DNA from: Heliocidaris erythrogramma
Lineage: Eukaryota; Echinodermata; Echinoidea; Camarodonta; Echinometridae
Length of the DNA: 64,000 bases
NCBI GenBank assembly: GCA_025617745.1
Contig: CM046859.1
Location: 30,090,744-30,154,743, forward strand
Direction of reading: 5' to 3'
The position numbers and the translations under genes are program-made. Under the pieces are notes generated by a model that saw nothing but the letters and a program-made list of their open reading frames with translations, was not told where the DNA came from and searched no databases. Each line of letters begins with the position of its first letter. The first letter of the stretch is position 1. Positions 18,701 to 63,784 of this stretch are shown in pieces.

Positions 18701-21700
18701 AAGTCACTCACTGCCACCACTCTGTATGAAAAAAAAAAGACTAAATGTAAATCAATCACTTTTTTTCTTCAAATTGGGAAAATGATTTTTTAATCTTTCT
18801 GATAGACACTTGCTTTTTTACATAAAAAGCAACAACAGGAAAGTTTTGAAGTCTTAAGAAATACGCTCCCTTTCTTCTGCTCTGTAACTTTGACCTTGTA
18901 ACACTGTGTTGAACTGTGATTACACCCCACTGAGTACACTATGGCATAGGCTAACATAATTTCCATATTGTGCGCCATTAGGGGGTTAAGGGGTTTTAAC
19001 TTCAACCTAAATCAAACGCTAATACCCACTTTATTGTAGCTCATCATTGTACCCCATTCACACCAACATGACCAACAGCACACCAACAACAAACCAAACA
19101 AAAAATCATACTAGCCTGAATAGCCAAGAATCGGTCAGTTTAGAAAAGGTGTTGATTTGGTTTTGCAGTGTGACTGAGGTATATAACACTAAACCTAAAC
19201 CCGACACAAGTGCTGTGCAGGAACAATGGGATTTCACTCATTCCATCAGTTACTTACCTCGAAGATGAAGCACTGGAATATGGTGATTGCCGTTATCAAT
19301 ACAGCATGAAGACTAAAGATGACGTCATTCAGTAAGACTGGATTCACTCCATACGGATGCTTGGCCTTGTAATCATCCTGCACAGAGTGAAACATGTGAG
19401 CGGGTAAATCAAATCATTACATCCAAAAACAAATAAGGCTGCAAAATTATTAGATTACGGTTAACTTTAGCCAAATGCAAAACTTGTAAGAAGAATTTCA
19501 CAGGAATCCACTGTGCAAGTGGAAGTGCAAATTAAAGAGTCTTGTTGATAGATATGAAAATATGAATTTACTCTCATTTTTGTGGTGAGTCATTGTTATT
19601 TCTGGGACGTATTGTCATATATTTTTGAGTTCCATGTATGGGCCTACACTGCAGCTAACATTCTTGTACCATACTACCATTTTATGTCATTTACAATCAT
19701 ATGACACTATATTTGCACATGGAGATCTAAAGAATATGATTGATGTGCAATACAGACTGAGAGCTTCAAATTTCAATAAATATATTCCCATAGTCTTTCA
19801 AAAATTACAATGGCACATCCTATAAACTCACCTTTATTGGTTGGATCCAGTACATGCCAACATTGAAGACACTATATGCTATGAAACCAGTAATATTATA
19901 AGCCAGAAAGTCAAAGTTCAGACCCTTTACACTGAGGAGAAAAATAAAGTGTGGGTGTAAAGGATGAGAAAAATAAACATTGTCACAAAAAAAGCATTAT
20001 AAACGTTTCATTTTCTCTAGAATGAAAGCTTTGAAAGTAATTCCTACACTACCTGATAAGCCAGTACACTTGTATCATCAATATTATGCATACTTCTTGT
20101 TAAATAAAAAGTTGCTTTTGAAGACCTAAAATGTTCCCAAATGCTTTTCCGATGTAGCAACAATATAAAAGAAATACAACCTTAATGGTAAGTTCTTCTG
20201 AATAAGAGCAGAAAAATCAGAGAAGCAGATTGATGAAAGTTTCAACTAAATTGACCACTATTATTAAAAGTTGTGAATTTTTGAAAGTCATGACCACTCA
20301 TAATGGAATTTCAAATTTGCTGAATAGGTAATAATGTCACTATGATGTAGCAGCGAACAACTATCCCAACTGCTTCATGTATAATACACTCTAAATAAAC
20401 ATTACAACTTGTGACTAGACTAGTCGACGTACAAGTTGCTCAAATCAGGGCCCGCGCAGAACCGAGTCAGAGTTGGGTTCCGCGCGAGAGGGTTTATATT
20501 TTCCTTGATTTTCTTTATATTCCTTAACCGTTAACTCATAGAAGATCAGGTAAAGCGTTTTGAGGTTAGTGTTCATACCCCTATCCTCTCCCAAATTTGA
20601 ATCTTGAATAGTGAATCAAGAATTACATCTACATTGTAGTTAATTTCACCTTTTCCGTGTGAAATTGAGGATGACTTGAGGATAAAAGGAGATGGACCAG
20701 GCGAAGAAGTAGATCCAGCCGACCACTATGATGACAATTGATAATGCATTGCTGTGGACTACATTAATCTCCACAAACAGTCCTGATAAGCTGTGAAAAA
20801 TTAAGAAATATAAGATTTCAATAATAAATCAAATAAATCACAAGAATTTAAAGGGTCACTAAAATAAAAAAATAATTGCCCATTTTTCGTAGGAAGGTGT
20901 CATCAGGAGCCAAAAAATATCCATCACACAATTTTTTATGCATTCAGTCATATTTTATAATCATTTGAAAAGTACATTTTTGCTGATTTACACAGTCATA
21001 AGCCCCGCCCCTAAAAAAAACCCATCGAAGCGACATCGTGATCACGTGATCTGTGACGCATGAAAAGTAAGGGAAAATATTCCACTAACCTATACCGTGC
21101 GCGCCCGGAGGCCCCCGGCAGGCCCAGCCCGGTGCTTTGCGTATTTTCGTGTGTTTTATTCCTCACAATAACTTTGATTTTGGGACACAGTTTCATCAAT
21201 AATGCATAATCGGTGTATAGTTGCGGGCTGTAGCAAGACCCCTAAAGATGGTGTAAGCCTACATCATTTTCCTAAAGATGAAAATCTACGGAAATTGTGG
21301 GTCGCAAAGGTAAAGCTCACGCAGGCAGAGTGGCAAGGGCCGGCCAAGTGAGTGGAGTACAATCTGCAGCGATCACTTTGCCGAAGATGCATGATTTTGA
21401 GGATCCTGTCCTGTATTCCGAATTTGGCATGAAGAGAAGGATAAGCTAGCTAAAAGATTCAGCTATTCCAACGATCAGACGTGGAGTCAAGTCTTCCAAT
21501 CTGTTTTTCAACGACAGCAGCTGCAGCAGCTTCATCCGTATATAGACCGAAAATTGTGTTTCTCGTTCGTTAGCTAAGACGACCTAACGAACGAGAGACA
21601 GAATTTTCGGTCTACTTCACCCGTAACTCCAGGGAGCTCCAACGCGTTGGAGCTCCCTGGAGTTACTTCACCCACGGCCCTTCACCGTATTCTGCGAAGG

Positions 21701-48586: not shown

Positions 48587-48843
48587 TCATTATCATTATA
48601 TTCAATTAGCGATTGCACCTGACCTATATACTTACACATAATATGCCAGTATAAAGAGTTATTTTTATTCTTCAGATGCGGTGTGCTACATAGCAGTGGC
48701 TTTAACATTTTTGTTGTTGCTCACTTGTTATCTTTCTTTTCTTGAATTTGGTTTTCTTAAGAAGTATCTGCTGCACGGCAAGTTCTGTTGGAATTGTAAA
48801 GTGTTTGAAAACTATCTGCGTCATAGATCATCTGTATTTACAT

Positions 48844-48847
<4 letters not shown>

Positions 48848-48881
<34 letters not shown>
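48848..48881. repeat. (TA)n microsatellite
   Basis: About 17 uninterrupted TA units. Confidence 0.95.
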
Positions 48882-48885
<4 letters not shown>

Positions 48886-48964
48886 GTATGTTCTTATCTA
48901 TTTTTGTTATGAGTTTATTTTCATGATTTTGTTGGCTATTATTGTTACTTACTATTGCTATCAG

Positions 48965-49042
48965 GGCCTCATGGAATACCACCAATATTGGTGATAATGA
49001 GTCACCCTGTATAAATATCAGAAATAAATAAATAAATAAATC
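48965..49042 (+). repeat. LINE 3' UTR end
   Basis: CAGGGCCTCATGGAATACC...GTCACCCTGTATAAATA with an (AAAT)n tail resembles the 3' end of the LINE at 10494-12199 (CAGGGCCCCTTGG...CTACCCTGTTAAAATAAA). Confidence 0.65.
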
Positions 49043-49356
49043 ATTTCAGATATGCGGCAAACAAAATGCTGTATAGTTGTGTAAGCAAGGTCATTACTTA
49101 CAGGATACTTCATTCATTTACCTCTACAATTTAAGATTTTAATCTGTTTTAAGAAATGTTAATACTTTTGCAAGGTTATAAAACATGCTCAATGATTTCA
49201 GTCTGCCCTGCTGCATAAATTGTTTAAGATATTTTGCATTATAGTTTGGTTTTACTTTTTGTTTCCTTTTATGATAATCATATCAGCCTGATGATAAGAC
49301 TCCTTCTTTAACTTGTTACGATCCATCTTTCTTCGGCTTTGGTTGTTTATGGTATC

Positions 49357-49570
49357 TATTCATTTATTTATTATTATTACTAGTATTATTTGTATTATTA
49401 TTATTATTATTATAATTATCATTATTATCATTATCATTAGTATTAGTATTATCTGTTTTATCATTTTTATTATTATTATTACTAATATTATCAGTATTAT
49501 AATTTTTATTATTGATAATATTATTGTTGTTGTTTTTATTGTTATTATTATTATTATTACAATTGTTATT
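49357..49570. repeat. (ATT)n-rich array
   Basis: Degenerate ATT triplets; the Ile-rich frame over it is an artefact. Confidence 0.9.
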
Positions 49571-49876
49571 ATGAAGTGGACTACCCAGAATTACGATGAC
49601 AATGTCATTTTGGATGGAGTTATGCGACCAGACTTAGATATTGCACCGGTTACTCTACTATTGCTTCTTTTATTTCCCTTGTCATGATCGTATAATTGGC
49701 CTATAGCCTATACGTATCAATAATAATTATGCTTGTTATAATACGTTGTGCTACTTGCCAGGCTATTTATTAAACATAGCAGTGACTCCTTTATGAACTC
49801 TCTGTAATATTACGTTGTTGTTTTTATTGCTGTTGTTGTTTTGGGGACCGGAGGGGAGGGCTTGTAGAGTCATCTA

Positions 49877-50027
49877 CAGAGCCATATTACAGACTTCGGC
49901 CAACTCGGTTTATTTGGGCACAACATGGCGTATATTCCTTTGTTTAGTGCTTGCCTAACAAAGCAACAAGCGCCATATTGCTACCTACATGGAGCCGAGT
50001 TGGCCAAACTCTGTAATAGATGGCTCT
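49877..50027. mobile_element. Hairpin MITE (about 150 bp)
   Basis: CAGAGCCATATTACAG...TTCGGCCAACTCGG at the left mirrors the right end with two small gaps; an inner pair (TTTGTTTAGTGCTTG / CAACAAGCGCCATAT) also partly pairs. Confidence 0.7.
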
Positions 50028-50187
50028 GAGGGCTACGGATGCAGGACGCCCCACCTTATTTTTAGTATACACTTTTCATAGTATACTTTTTTAATCACAA
50101 TTTATGTTGAATGTTGACGAAGTAATTACATCTTACATGTCTTAATGATAATAAAGTGTCAATGTTTGGCTCGCTGGAATCCAGCAG

Positions 50188-50395
50188 CGTGTGTGTGTGT
50201 GTGTGTGTGTGTGTAATTGGGTTTTTACAGACGTGTATCAATCAGATATGATTATTTACGTCTGGGACCGACCTTTAACGTCACCATCCGAAAGACGTGA
50301 CTCAGTCTCGAACCTGGGTCCGCTGAATCAGTTTATAACTTCCACTGTTAGCTGGATTACAGGCGCACGCCACAACGCCCAGTTGTGGTGCCCGA
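50188..50395 (-). ncRNA. SINE with 7SL RNA-like head
   Basis: Read on the minus strand, the head (about 50390-50320) contains ACTGGGCGTTGTGGCGTG and GCGCCTGTAATCCAGCTA, the signature of the 5' Alu domain of 7SL RNA (about 27 of 35 aligned bases match the human sequence I recall). CCCAGGTTCGAGACTGAG follows at the B-box position. The body (CGTCTTTCGGATGGTGACGT, GGTCGGTCCCAGACGTAAAT, CTGATTGATACACGTCTGT) and the (AC)n 3' tail match the element at 61999. It therefore looks like a retroposed chimera of a 7SL head and a shared tail. Confidence 0.7.
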
Positions 50396-51349
50396 ACATC
50401 CTTTTATTTTGGGAAGCGAGATGGTCGGCTATCCTTATCTGTGGGCGGGAAGGTACTCAAAATGTTATCGTTGTTTGGATCATCTGGTAACAAAATCATT
50501 ATTCTATAGACAATATCTCCTTTTTTTTTACTTGCTCACTAGCGCGTAAGATTTAGAAACGGAATAGTTTGGGACAGGGAACGCCCTTCATTAGGGCGAG
50601 TGAAGTGCCCAAATATTCCATATTCGGCAGCAGGGTTAAGTAATATTATTCATGGCTCATTATTACATGTTCTACATTTGTCTTTTGATGGCGAAATTGC
50701 ATTTCCATTACAATAAAAAAAAGGGTTTTATGTTTTTTTTCTAACTCGCTTCGCTCGCTTGCAAATTGTAGAAACGGGGAGTATGATATTCTGCCAAGAG
50801 GCATCAGCTCCCCCTTTCAAAAACATTACGTGGCCATTTTCTGCTTGTAAAGATCTACTTGGAACTTTGGTGTGTCTCATTTTCCAAAGCGGTATATACA
50901 TTATATAAATAACTTCAAGCCAATTTCGTTGTAGCAAATTTAATCCGGAATCCGATCATTCACTTTCTTCAATACATCAGTATGTATTTTAATCACCAAA
51001 GTAATATCATTTTATGAGAAATGAAACATGTATTCCTGAGGCGCTCGCTCACAAATATTGGTTATTATAATATGAACAATGATAATAATGATAATAATAT
51101 TAATAATAATAACAATAATGATGATAATTATAATAATAATTATAATAATAATAATAATCATAATAATAATAATGATAATATTGATAGGAATTACGATAAT
51201 ATAATGGCTATTTCTCTGGATTTTATTATAATTGTTATCATCATTGTTATGATTATTGAGTACGAAATTAATATCTTTACACTTGGCCGTCTTTCCCCTC
51301 CTACCTATCCGAAATACGGATTGACGCCGTATTCTCTGAATTTACAACC

Positions 51350-51800
51350 TGTTTTCATTTTCGGAAATACGAACCCTTTTTCATTTTCGGAAATACGAAC
51401 CCTATTTCATTTTCGGAAATACGAACCCTATTTCATTTTCGGAAATACGAACCCTTTTCATTTTCGGAAATACGAACCCTTTTTCATTTTCGGAAATACG
51501 AACCCTATTTCATTTTCGGAAATACGAACCCTTTTTCATTTTCGGAAATACGAACCCTTTTTCATTTTCGGAAATACGAACCCTTTTTCATTTTCGGAAA
51601 TACGAACCTCATTTCATTTTCGGAAATACGAACCTTCGGAATTATGAACCCTATTTCATTTTCGGAAAAACGAACCTTCGGAAAAACGAACCTTCGGAAA
51701 AACGAACCGTCGGAGTAACGAACCTTCGGAATAACGAACCTTCGGAATTATGAACCTTCGGAAAAACGAACCTTCGGAAATACGAACCTTCGGAAAAACG
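51350..51800 (-). repeat. Right arm tandem array (26-bp and 16-bp units)
   Basis: About 12 inner units with CGGAAATACGAACCCTTTTT and then outer units of CGGAAAAACGAACCTT, i.e. the complement of the left arm in mirrored order. Frames reading FSFSEIRTLFHFRKYEP are repeat artefacts. Confidence 0.95.
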
Positions 51801-51810
51801 ACATGTAACC

Positions 51811-59118: not shown

Positions 59119-62100
59119 GTAAAGGGGTGTTGTATGTTGACCATTGGCGTCTTGCATTAGTTGATGAATGAGTGCAGTGTAGTTGTGTATGTGCATGCGT
59201 GTATGATGGGGAGCCATAACTACATTACATGTATGTCTGTGCACCTAAGATTTGACTTGAAATTGAGCAAGAATTTTATTTACTTTCCTCTAATGCATAA
59301 TCTTATATTATTTGTGATATTCTAAAGTAAAGAGTAGTAAGTTTGTCAATAATGTTGTTAAGATTTGACCAAGAACAAAGTAATTTTCAACAAAACATGA
59401 CATTAATTAAACTTAGTTAAAGTTTAAAACATGACGTTAAAAAACAAAGCCAAGGTGCCCTTTTTTGTGTACCTGTCTTGTCATGTACTACAAGTAACTC
59501 CAGAGTCCAGGGGGTCATTTTGTCAAACCGCCATAACAAGATCAGCGACATCTTGACGCTGTCACTCAACTCAACTATTTCACAAAGTTAGGGAGGTCCA
59601 CAAAAAAAAAACCAGCACTCACTGTCACAAAACATGCCTTAAAATATTGATTAATATTCCAATTATCACACAGATGGCTCAAAACTTAACTGAAAATCTC
59701 ATAAATAGTGAAAAATAAGGGCTAAATAGTCCATATCATGTGCTGAAAAATACATTGACATATTCTGCGCGCAGCGCGTACGTGGCTTTACAAGCAATGT
59801 ACTATCGATAGTCAAACGATCATCATGCGCGCACGCGAATAAATTGGAAGAAATTCCCCCAAAATCGTAGCTCACTGCATGACAAGCCCATATCTATGCC
59901 TCTCACATGCTATAGGCGATTCACTGCGGCGCGATTATTCAATGACTCATCGATAGATAACGAACTCAACTCCCCTAAAATACACAGATTCTGACACATC
60001 TCACTACATCACCCACTCAAACTATGCAAGAACAAGGTAAGTAGCGATCAAAATGCCTAAAATTGCATACATACCGCCACTTTGTTTGTCCTTCAGGGAA
60101 AAAATCCTGGGTTTGGTGGGATGTATAGGGCATCCCCTGAACGGTAAACTCGCAGACATTCAGAATACGTCATTGATAAACATAGGGGGACCAATCACAG
60201 AAAGAAAAAATCTCAGATTCATTCGCCTGTCATTCGCTTAACACAGGCGGTATCAGAAGTGTGTGCATGCATAGCGGGCCGAATCGCGCATTGACTATCT
60301 GTGCACTTGCGCGATAGCGCCATCTAGCGCCTGTGGTTGTGCCTAACAAAGCCATCTTTGCCACACCACGAATAGTGGTCATATTGACCACTACGCGATA
60401 TGAATGCAAAAACACTTTGTATTTTCTGTCGCATGTACTAAAGGTATGGGGGAAAAATAAGATAAATATTTTAAATACTTCCTTTCAAATTCAGCTCTTG
60501 AAAATCTCACTCCTACCTCAAATGGCTGTTACTAGGAACACTCATAGCTACATGACTATACTTCGTGTGTAGAATCTAGGCAGTCATACACCTTAACTTT
60601 TTCAAACACCACTGCACAAAAGTCACCAACATTCACTCAAAATCGGTATTTAATTTACAAAAACCAACCCCAACATATCCAAGAAATACAAATTCAACTC
60701 AACGATGTTGGAAAAGATAATTCCAAAAATGAAATCCGTAATTTACTGTCGATTCTCGCGAAACAAGCTATCGGAGTCATTGTGTACATGTACATTTCCT
60801 GGTCGCTGCGGGCGCTGACATCTCCCCAAAAGGATATTGTCGTTAAAAATTCAGTCCCTATCGCGTACACGGAAAAGTTCTGATTTTCGGTGTGCGCGAT
60901 CGTAGAGATCGATGTGTGCTTGCGATCCCGAGTTTCTTCGTGGACAAAAAATTTATTGGCCGATTTTAGTCTAAGACATCGGCGGTATGTGAACAACATG
61001 CGATCGTGAAACAAATCGGTGGGGATTTCTTCGGTTTTGGACATGATTTTGACTTTGGATTTTGCTGGAAATATCAAAAGTTCTTCCAAACACATTCCTT
61101 TATCAAATAGTTTTTAATAATTTTTATATTATAATATTGTTCATGCGGACAATATGTTTTTATGCATCTTGACACCCCCCCCCCCCCCCGGTGTGATTAT
61201 CTCGTTCTTGGTTTCAAGAAAGATTCTTGAGCTACATTACTGATGTTAGATGGGTGTTAAATTGTGGGTCTCCCTGAATGATGATGATGATGATGATCAT
61301 CATCATCATCATCTCTGGTACAAATGAAGGGGTTAGCTTGTAATTCCGGTCTCTTCATCTTTCCATTGACAACTTTGTTGACAGTTTACAGTACAAATAG
61401 AGCATGTAATCGAGATTAAACTTGTGTTCTATAGTCTAAGTCGAAACGAGACTAATTCGATTGAAGTATGAGTATCATTATGACTGACTATTTATCAAGT
61501 TATCAGATTATAGGGAACTAAAAGATGTTAAGAATACAGTTTATTTCCAAGGTTAAGAACATAGTTCTGTTTGCATGTTTGCAAGACAGATGATATTTTG
61601 GTGTACGACAATGGGACAGTTGACTGTGAATATGTTACTATCGACTCACCAAATTGCAAATTTGAGCTTTACCTTGATGTAGTGATCTCATTTTTCAAAA
61701 CGTTCATCACTTTGTCTGATTTCTTGCAAACTTTCACCATTCACCATTCTGTTTCTCTTATGTTTCTGCTTTCACAAAAATCAAACCTTTTACAAAGGTT
61801 TGATTGCCCTTAAAATTGTACTAATCACCAAAAATATTTTGCTATGTATGTTAGGGGTTTTACATGTATGTTAATATACTATATCAAAAAATATAAATTT
61901 CAAATGTTCATTCTCTAAAGAGATATTGCAAGTTGAAATACACACCCAATAAACAATACAGCAACATGTGAGAAGACTAGTCAATGCACCCTTATAGGGA
62001 TCAGGAGTTGGTCTAGCGGTAACGTCTACGGCAGCTCTTTGTACTCACCTACAAAATGACTCTGATCGGAGGCAGGTTCAAATCTCCATCACGTCTTTCG

Positions 62101-63784
62101 GATGGTGACGTTAAAGGTCGGTCCCAGATGTAAATAATCATATTTGATTGATACTCGTCTGTCAAAACTCAATTACACACACAAAGGCGCTCGCATACAA
62201 CAAGGCCCCGCGTGGAACCAAACTCGGAGGTGGGTTCTGCGCCAGGGGGTTTTACGTGTTCCTTAATTTTCTTCATGCTCCTTCCTTATCCGTCAACCCT
62301 TGCAAGGCCAGGTTATAGCGTTTCGAGGTTGGCTTATTTAGCTGTACACAAATGATATTTTCAGGTGATTGGTACACTTTAAGTGACCATTTTTCTACAT
62401 GGTGCTCTGATAAATATCTTTATTTTTCTTTTTTGTATGATTAGTCTTGGTAGGCTTAAAGCTTTTTAAATTGTTTTTAAAGATTTAAATATAAAATAGA
62501 ACATTAATATTAAGCTTCAGTCAACATTGTGGAATTTCTTATATGTTTTCACTGATTTACATGTGTGATGTAATTTTAATTTTTTCTTTCTTTCACAGGA
62601 GGGTTCGCATTTGTTTTTGTCGCTCAGGAAAATTCTACTGGAAAAGAATATGCGCTCAAGGTAACAATCTCAAAAATGTATTCAAATTTGGTTACATATT
62701 AAGAAATTTTACTTATTTTCTTGAATTGTCTGTGCTGCGTAGTGCAGAGATACAATTGACACAGTTTTATCATGCACTTGTGGCAATACATGCATGTTCA
62801 TAATTTTTAATGTAAACTCATTCATGTAAAAAAAGTTATTAACCATATCAGACATCTGAGCAATGCAATTTTTACATTTTGTTGCCCGTTTTTGACAAGC
62901 CAACAAAATTGCGGGCTTCGAAAGTCAATGGGATTTTACGTGTTAAATAAACTGTATTTTTTACAGTATTTTCGAGGTCGCTCTAGATGTCTGATTCTGT
63001 TAAATATGGACTGGCTACTTTCAGGGGATACAACATAATACATTAATTGTTGCATTTCTTTGTCTTTATTACAGAGACTGCTGGCAAATGATGAAGAGAA
63101 ATCCAAAGAAATCCTCCAAGAGATTGCAGTTCTTGTATCCTTTTCATTTGTAACTGCGTGGATATCTTAAATGTGTGATATTTTTTGTAGCTTTCAGGCC
63201 TTGCAAGATCACTGTGATGAAGTATAGACCTGTTCATCCTTTAATTAATTAGAAATATCAAATTTCCAATTAGGATGTTTATTCAGAATCTGTGAGGATT
63301 TGAAGGGAGTTACAAAAAGGAAAAGGATTTGATATTTTTATATCATCGTTCATGACAATTTCCTTGTTGAATACTGTCAGAAAGAACACTTTTCAGGAAA
63401 TGAAATCAATAAAAATGTTTATGTAGCTTACTAGGCATTCAATTAATGCAGTCTCACCAAAATAGGTTCCACTTGTTGGTAACATATTACTCTTGGCACT
63501 TGCTTCCTTAGCAGCCCCTCATTTCACAGAAAAGGTTATCTGGGCACCCTAGTATAGTGCAGTTCTACTCTGCTGCATCCATCGGGAAGGACGACACCGA
63601 CCATGGCCAATCGGAATACCTTCTTCTGATGGAGCTGTGTCCTGGAGGCCAGCTGGTGGATGTTATCAACCAGCGCTCCATGCCGCTGAGTTGCGATGAA
63701 GTCCTGCAAGCATTCTACCAGGCATGCCGGGGTGTTCAGCATATGCATAAGCAGAGCCCATCCGTAACACACAGGGATATCAAA
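58992..63784 (+). CDS. GAK: Cyclin-G-associated kinase, 5' part (exons 1-4)
   Basis: GAK is a Ser/Thr kinase of the NAK family that phosphorylates clathrin adaptors and, through a C-terminal J domain, recruits Hsc70 to uncoat clathrin vesicles. Coding exons: 58992-59118, 62599-62660, 63075-63134 and 63530-63784; junctions are GT-AG and phases agree (168 codons so far). The protein begins MSEYFRSAFGLLGG, then DFVGQQVELGDTKLRVRRV. The glycine-rich loop is AEGGFAFVFVAQ, the ATP lysine is in EYALKRLL, the regulatory Glu in EILQEIAVL, followed by LSGHPSIVQFYSAASIGKDD and the catalytic HRDIK. Order and text match human GAK closely, more than AAK1 or BIKE. The remaining kinase, PTEN-like, clathrin-binding and J regions should lie beyond 64000. 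Confidence 0.93.
59119..60417. other. GAK intron 1, first part
   Basis: No nested gene recognised. CpG-containing stretch at 59760-60330 with GCGCGCA words and short non-similar frames on both strands. Confidence 0.5.
60418..61090. repeat. Dispersed repeat family D, rearranged copy in GAK intron 1
   Basis: 60418-60535 matches the 5' third of the 29459 copy in direct orientation. 60540-61090 matches the remainder in inverted orientation, so the open-frame section (60694-61095, MSKTEEIPTDLFHDRMLFTY...) is on the minus strand. The joint is at the AGGAA(GA)AC word present in every copy. Confidence 0.75.
61091..61998. other. GAK intron 1, middle part
   Basis: Poly-C at 61177-61190 and a (GAT)6(ATC)6 palindrome at 61279-61312. 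A short frame at 61571 shows no similarity. Confidence 0.5.
61999..62185 (+). repeat. tRNA-headed SINE
   Basis: Head with A-box-like TGGTCTAGCGG (62010) and B-box-like GGTTCAAATCT (62080). The body CGTCTTTCGGATGGTGACGT, GGTCGGTCCCAGATGTAAAT, TTGATTGATACTCGTCTGTC and the ACACAC tail match the 7SL-headed element at 50188-50395. Confidence 0.7.
62206..62340 (+). repeat. Dispersed repeat, second copy (see 20449)
   Basis: GTGGAACCAAACTCGG, GTGGGTTCTGCGCC, TTCCTTAATTTTCTT and AGCGTTTCGAGGTTGG match the copy in CTNS intron 3. It directly follows the SINE. Confidence 0.6.
62599..62660 (+). CDS. GAK: GAK exon 2 (glycine-rich loop, ATP lysine)
   Basis: 62 bp, acceptor CTTTCACAG, donor GTAACA. Encodes GGFAFVFVAQENSTGKEYAL and K. 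Confidence 0.93.
63075..63134 (+). CDS. GAK: GAK exon 3 (alpha-C helix)
   Basis: 60 bp, acceptor TTATTACAG, donor GTATCC. Encodes RLLANDEEKSKEILQEIAVL. Confidence 0.92.
63530..63784 (+). CDS. GAK: GAK exon 4 (kinase N-lobe to HRD motif)
   Basis: 255 bp, acceptor TTTCACAG, donor GTGAGC. Encodes KRLSGHPSIVQFYSAASIGK, SEYLLLMELCPGGQLVDV, FYQACRGVQHMH and THRDIK. The intron after it runs past the window end with no further exon visible. Confidence 0.95.

Follow-up and report, generated by a model that had tools for sequence, protein, structure and literature searches.

A 7SL RNA-headed SINE family in a sea urchin genome, with the 5′ half of the Alu domain joined to the body of a tRNA-like SINE

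Does an echinoderm genome carry a SINE headed by 7SL RNA and, if so, how much of 7SL RNA does it use and where does the remainder come from? The question was raised by an earlier note on the window, by which we mean the whole 64,000-nt stretch of DNA analysed, where a SINE with a 7SL RNA-like head was placed at 50188..50395 in an apparent echinoderm. The SINE is there, and the 7SL-like string lies on the minus strand as claimed. The limits were drawn too wide: the element proper occupies 50215-50383 (−) and is followed by an (AC)13 tail at 50189-50214 (−), and its likeness to 7SL RNA is confined to the first 46 nt. As had been supposed, the host belongs to the echinoderms. Its COX1, on a contig of 12,905 bases, has 11 TGA codons within the matched reading frame. 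Several mitochondrial codes leave that frame open, and code 9 (AAA Asn, AGA Ser, ATA Ile, TGA Trp) is the only one to give the conserved residues at the deciding codons. The named sequences nearest to this COX1 were those of Prionocidaris baculosa (96%) and of a Cidaridae cluster (96%), then a 117-member cluster that bears the name of the sea urchin Echinocrepis (95%), with named sea stars and holothurians at 92% or below, so the host is a sea urchin, a cidaroid or close to one.

The head (50338..50383, minus strand) corresponds to nucleotides 1-44 of the host SRP RNA, the stretch that makes up helices 2, 3 and 4 in the Alu 5′ domain; its loop 4 carries an insertion of 2 nt. Compared with one host SRP RNA gene (L032), 43 of these 44 nt are identical apart from the two extra bases, and the alignment scored 76, where the maximum among 1,000 dinucleotide shuffles was 32. 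A significant alignment to host 7SL RNA had been set beforehand as the test of the reading, and the close match to the 5′ Alu domain that was claimed from the letters is borne out by it. Of 26 candidates scored, 18 passed the cut-off as host SRP RNA genes, and 10 of these contain the first 36 nt of the head unchanged; L045, which belongs to the 18, stood in this comparison in the wrong orientation. Within the window, a 25-nt piece of the head matched once at ≤3 mismatches, and 100 shuffles gave no match. The Rfam model Metazoa_SRP matched 50291-50383 (−) with 31.2 bits (E 1.2e-6 for all of Rfam), under its 70-bit gathering score, and scored 34.3 for the copies in L012, L019, L020 and L023; posterior values were high in the first part of the match only, with the remainder aligned at low posterior. 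No likeness to SRP RNA was found beyond nt 46 of the head (score 12, shuffle mean 13.8), so the closing of helix 2 in the Alu domain marks the end of the retained 7SL piece. Of the Alu domain, the element has from 7SL only helices 2-4, the SRP9/14-binding half; it lacks the 3′ half as well as a box B of 7SL. Although 7SL Alu RNA has a tRNA-like fold and box A/B logic, and box B and all that follows it are common to a SINE with tRNA-like boxes, a tRNA-derived head that came to resemble 7SL through chance or convergence is so improbable, given 36 consecutive nt identical to 10 of the 18 host genes, a score of 76 over a shuffle maximum of 32 and a sister SINE whose first half is unlike this head, that we set it aside.

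The second half of the element (50215..50337, minus strand) comprises a box-B region, a body and a 3′ unique tail, all of which sequence comparison finds in a tRNA-like SINE as well. Its box B, GGTTCGAGACT at 50304..50314 (−), is of the tRNA type by the usual box consensus and comes from the tRNA-like half. That the body and (AC)n tail recur in an element at 61999 had been noted before and holds true, with 86% identity over 134 nt between the two copies in the window. This sister SINE lies at 61996..62185 (+), its start being set by a 30-copy consensus, with box A at 62009-62019 and box B at 62075-62085 (both +). The consensus aligns to the 7SL-SINE from its TACAAACTGA on, through the tRNA-type box B, body and tail, so 7SL nt 1-44 would have taken the place of the first ~55 nt of an older SINE; the first half of the sister SINE shows no resemblance to the 7SL-derived head. 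Among the 41 genome matches listed for the sister SINE (from 40 scored of 1,395 candidates), identity is 87-93% in the 39 other long ones, and for that reason the sister family looks older. Its head looks tRNA-based, judging from boxes A and B, recognised by their consensus. Rfam gave no tRNA match to the sister copy in the window, and ARAGORN at a lowered threshold found no sound tRNA in the sister consensus.

The same body and tail also occur behind a third kind of head. At L018:2165-2283 (minus strand; contig C12, ~1.65 Mb) they follow a 5S rRNA head, complete over positions 1-120 (109.4 bits with the Rfam 5S model), and three 7SL-SINE units come directly after; this is the one 5S-headed copy seen in 362,396 bases of genome sequence. 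In this genome a single body and tail has served as a platform for heads of three kinds: tRNA-like, 5S and 7SL. V-domain SINEs, named for their V highly conserved domain (PMC6887750), are also among the closest known systems. The body motif TTTCGGATG..GACGTTAAA is typical of V-SINEs and makes the element a candidate for that superfamily. V-SINE heads are not known to be of other than tRNA or 5S type. BLAST of the 362,396 bases found neither the tail outside SINE contexts nor a partner LINE.

The earlier reading required that head and tail be joined at one fixed point and that the head occur in more than one copy, and both expectations proved right. An exact 60-nt string across the head-body junction is present in 755 + 771 = 1,526 copies genome-wide (1,064,227,859 bases in 26 contigs, 21 of them 37-79 Mb), with none for the reversed string. 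The copy in the window differs from this string and is uncounted, so 1,526 is a lower bound and the head is found in at least that many places. In an earlier, flank-biased set, the junction was kept with ≤1 edit in 51 of 53 distinct units. A sample of 40 copies was drawn from the first 41.4 Mb of contig 1, where 48 places were listed and 8 were omitted for lying close together. The tail is full in 37 of the 40, and 14 of these 37 are identical to the 167-nt consensus, in a sample biased to young copies because it was picked by exact 60-nt match. In 33 of the 37 full copies an A precedes CTGGG, which places the 5′ end at 7SL nt 1. An additional CAC before the start in L001-L030 was considered as part of the element and rejected, as comparison with the 40-copy sample indicates that it probably originates from the query flank. 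Two sampled copies (L108 and L111) end at GTTAAAG followed by TAGAAC, perhaps representing a second form with another 3′ end. The 7SL-SINE is a dispersed multi-copy family with one fixed structure, as a SINE should be, and the family is young and abundant. Viral contigs, a set from which records near the host genome were possibly excluded, contained neither of two 25-nt strings, one from the head and one from the body, in exact form. A DNA search with the bare consensus returned 0 candidates, which says nothing against the family's presence, since words very common in the genome are passed over by that search.

Multiplication of a sequence does not in itself make a SINE, and tandem and segmental duplication of a satellite or passenger sequence could also have produced many copies. 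Units do stand in tandem arrays with a period of ~180-190 nt and (AC)n joined to head (L006, L007, L010, L018, L028 and others), and L006, L007 and L018 have a common upstream flank. The window copy itself lies in a block of at least ~3 kb (~48688-51810) with internal short repeats, which recurs at 3 other places with 95-98% identity. Because some copies belong to such arrays or larger duplicated blocks, not each copy represents a separate jump. Against duplication as the general explanation, the 5′ flanks were counted as distinct in 37 of the 40 sampled copies, although a few among them still look related, and only 4 of the 37 full copies adjoin another unit, 8 places that lay close together having been removed from the sample beforehand. 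With those four array copies excluded, 33 copies were testable for target-site duplications: 9 of the 33 have duplications of ≥9 nt, as opposed to 0 of 1,609 re-paired controls, and 11 of the 33 have duplications of ≥7 nt, as opposed to 0.7% of the controls. The remaining 24 of 33 copies lack a duplication of ≥9 nt, which would suit a satellite, and the copy in the window has no clear one either, as judged by its identical twin L002. Target duplications, which had been proposed as a check, are thus present in the family in part and are not evident at the locus where it was discovered. Copies with biased flanks, tested earlier, gave a weak signal: 4 of 24 scored ≥8, the control being 5%. With duplications of ≥9 nt in 9 of 33 copies and one 5′ end common to 33 of 37, we consider a satellite or passenger origin highly unlikely, and from the target duplications we infer that the 7SL-headed SINE spread by target-primed insertion.

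Where these insertions fall was considered separately. A TATA-like motif, chosen after looking at the flanks, occurred at −41..−21 of the SINE 5′ end in 20 of 64 flanks of the discovery set (shuffle mean 3.6), the antisense motif in 13 of 64, and the motif upstream of the sister SINE in 6 of 26 (shuffle mean 1.3); the flanks came from L001-L030, L049-L083 and L097-L156. In a hold-out of 20 flanks, less 1 array copy and 1 near-duplicate flank, the motif was found in 2 of 18 against a shuffle mean of 0.9, a count that 107 of 500 shuffles attained, and the interval −62..−42 also gave 2 of 18. Insertion of the SINE at transcription starts is possible, but was unconfirmed in the hold-out.

The central reading of the earlier note, a 7SL-headed SINE in an echinoderm, is upheld by the alignment to host 7SL RNA, the fixed junction and the copy number, with the refinement that 7SL contributed no more of the Alu domain than its 5′ half and that box B, to go by the boxes and the alignment, comes from the tRNA-like SINE. 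Very probably, the element arose in the sea urchin lineage from an existing tRNA-like SINE, whose first ~55 nt, the box-A half, gave way to the 5′ 44 nt of the host's 7SL RNA. The fusion probably occurred by template switching from SINE RNA to 7SL RNA during reverse transcription. The box A equivalent of 7SL, GGCGTTGTGG at 50370..50379 (−), resembles box A of human (GGCGCGGTGG) and hagfish (GGCGCAGTGG) 7SL, as given in PMC7245038. Because the 7SL box B and the 3′ Alu half are absent, the promoter would pair the 7SL box A with the tRNA-type box B, and RNA polymerase III may transcribe the SINE from this predicted hybrid. The first 46 nt of the SINE RNA would then fold as Alu-domain helices 2-3-4 and form a putative binding site for SRP9/14, whose binding would carry the RNA to ribosomes producing a LINE reverse transcriptase. 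The LINE enzyme would recognise the (AC)n-terminated tail common to both SINEs and, at a nicked target, copy the RNA.

The sequence of the head is compatible with such a fold. All 11 of 11 pairs of helices 2-4 are retained, one of them as G-U, as is the UGU motif (50359..50361, minus strand, from the Rfam alignment), so that both components of a minimal SRP9/14-binding Alu RNA are found in it. In SRP RNA, the UGU U-turn is the site touched by SRP9/14, and loops 3 and 4 make a pseudoknot (PMC8137916); the 2-nt insertion of the head sits in loop 4, one of these pseudoknot-forming loops. The free-folding energy of the head RNA was no better than that of shuffles (z 0.18), and in unconstrained folding helix 2 stays open. 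Conservation of the helices in a young family copies its source and gives no sign of selection. It is worth asking if the head matters for the promoter alone, through box A and the start site, with no part in SRP9/14 binding or docking to ribosomes. The element keeps box A and the transcription start from 7SL and has a tRNA-type box B in place of that of 7SL, the sister family has spread without a 7SL head, and the 5S-headed relative has the same body. The retained piece, however, stops exactly at the closing of helix 2, and a promoter by itself would not account for that boundary. We regard a role limited to the promoter as a real possibility, if somewhat doubtful.

How does this 7SL-headed SINE compare with those already described? 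Alu in primates, which also goes back to 7SL RNA, and B1 in rodents have their 5′ end at 7SL nt 1 and keep the Alu 5′ domain, and their heads retain both Alu halves; the sea urchin element has the same 5′ end, but the 5′ half only. Alu and B1 rely on poly-A and L1, according to PMC7245038. The same source describes hagfish SINE1-1_EBu, which is alike in that a 7SL-derived head stands on a body and tail common to a tRNA-headed SINE of the same genome, and in being young, flanked by target duplications and independent of the Alu lineage. It is unlike the sea urchin element in its head, which is ~140 nt long and includes a 5′ as well as a 3′ part of the Alu domain, as opposed to 44 nt of 7SL, and in its tail, which is RTE-derived with AAC repeats, whereas the sea urchin SINE has (AC)n, a tRNA-type box B and an invertebrate host. 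Measured against the features of SINE1, a 7SL-derived 5′ head is present here (identical to host SRP RNA at 43 of 44 nt), a head that joins both Alu-domain parts across a deleted centre, like those of Alu, B1 and hagfish, is not, and neither is a promoter with both 7SL box A and 7SL box B, the box B here being that of the tRNA-like SINE. The Alu-domain structure is argued to be favoured in SINE1 (PMC7245038); in the sea urchin 7SL-SINE, half of that structure has sufficed. No report of a 7SL-derived SINE in an echinoderm was found among the titles and abstract beginnings listed from openly licensed papers, and in PMC6327564 7SL appears only within a reference.

Together, these findings suggest that a 7SL-headed SINE has originated independently outside vertebrates, with a head that is reduced and hybrid. 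The fuller statement, that it is the third independent birth of a 7SL-headed SINE and the first outside vertebrates, with the SRP9/14-binding Alu half kept, the 3′ half dropped, and the same body and tail serving tRNA-like, 5S and 7SL heads, we judge to be about evenly balanced. If true, the element would be a natural minimal Alu, and would be evidence that the 5′ domain alone, meaning SRP9/14 recruitment as opposed to the whole Alu fold, is enough for success. A recent echinoderm case would also mean that 7SL capture recurs across deuterostomes. Since helices 2-4 alone were kept, on a body that also carries tRNA-like and 5S heads, the family amounts to a natural head-swap experiment, and such matched elements in one genome make the role of the Alu head (promoter, SRP9/14 or ribosome docking) directly testable.

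Several smaller observations were made along the way. The interval C16:41246598-41716167 contains twelve of the 18 host genes for SRP RNA, many of them spaced ~2.05-2.2 kb apart, and near one SRP gene (L031) there is an older, interrupted 7SL-SINE copy with 92.5% identity over 118 nt. Contig C26 (14,520 bases; L084) looks bacterial by eye over its first 10,000 bases and is probably an assembly contaminant; that it might be the mitochondrion was ruled out by its bacterial-looking reading frames. In the window, a LINE endonuclease reading frame is present, and 62203-62297, directly downstream of the sister SINE, is 75% alike to 20447-20535.
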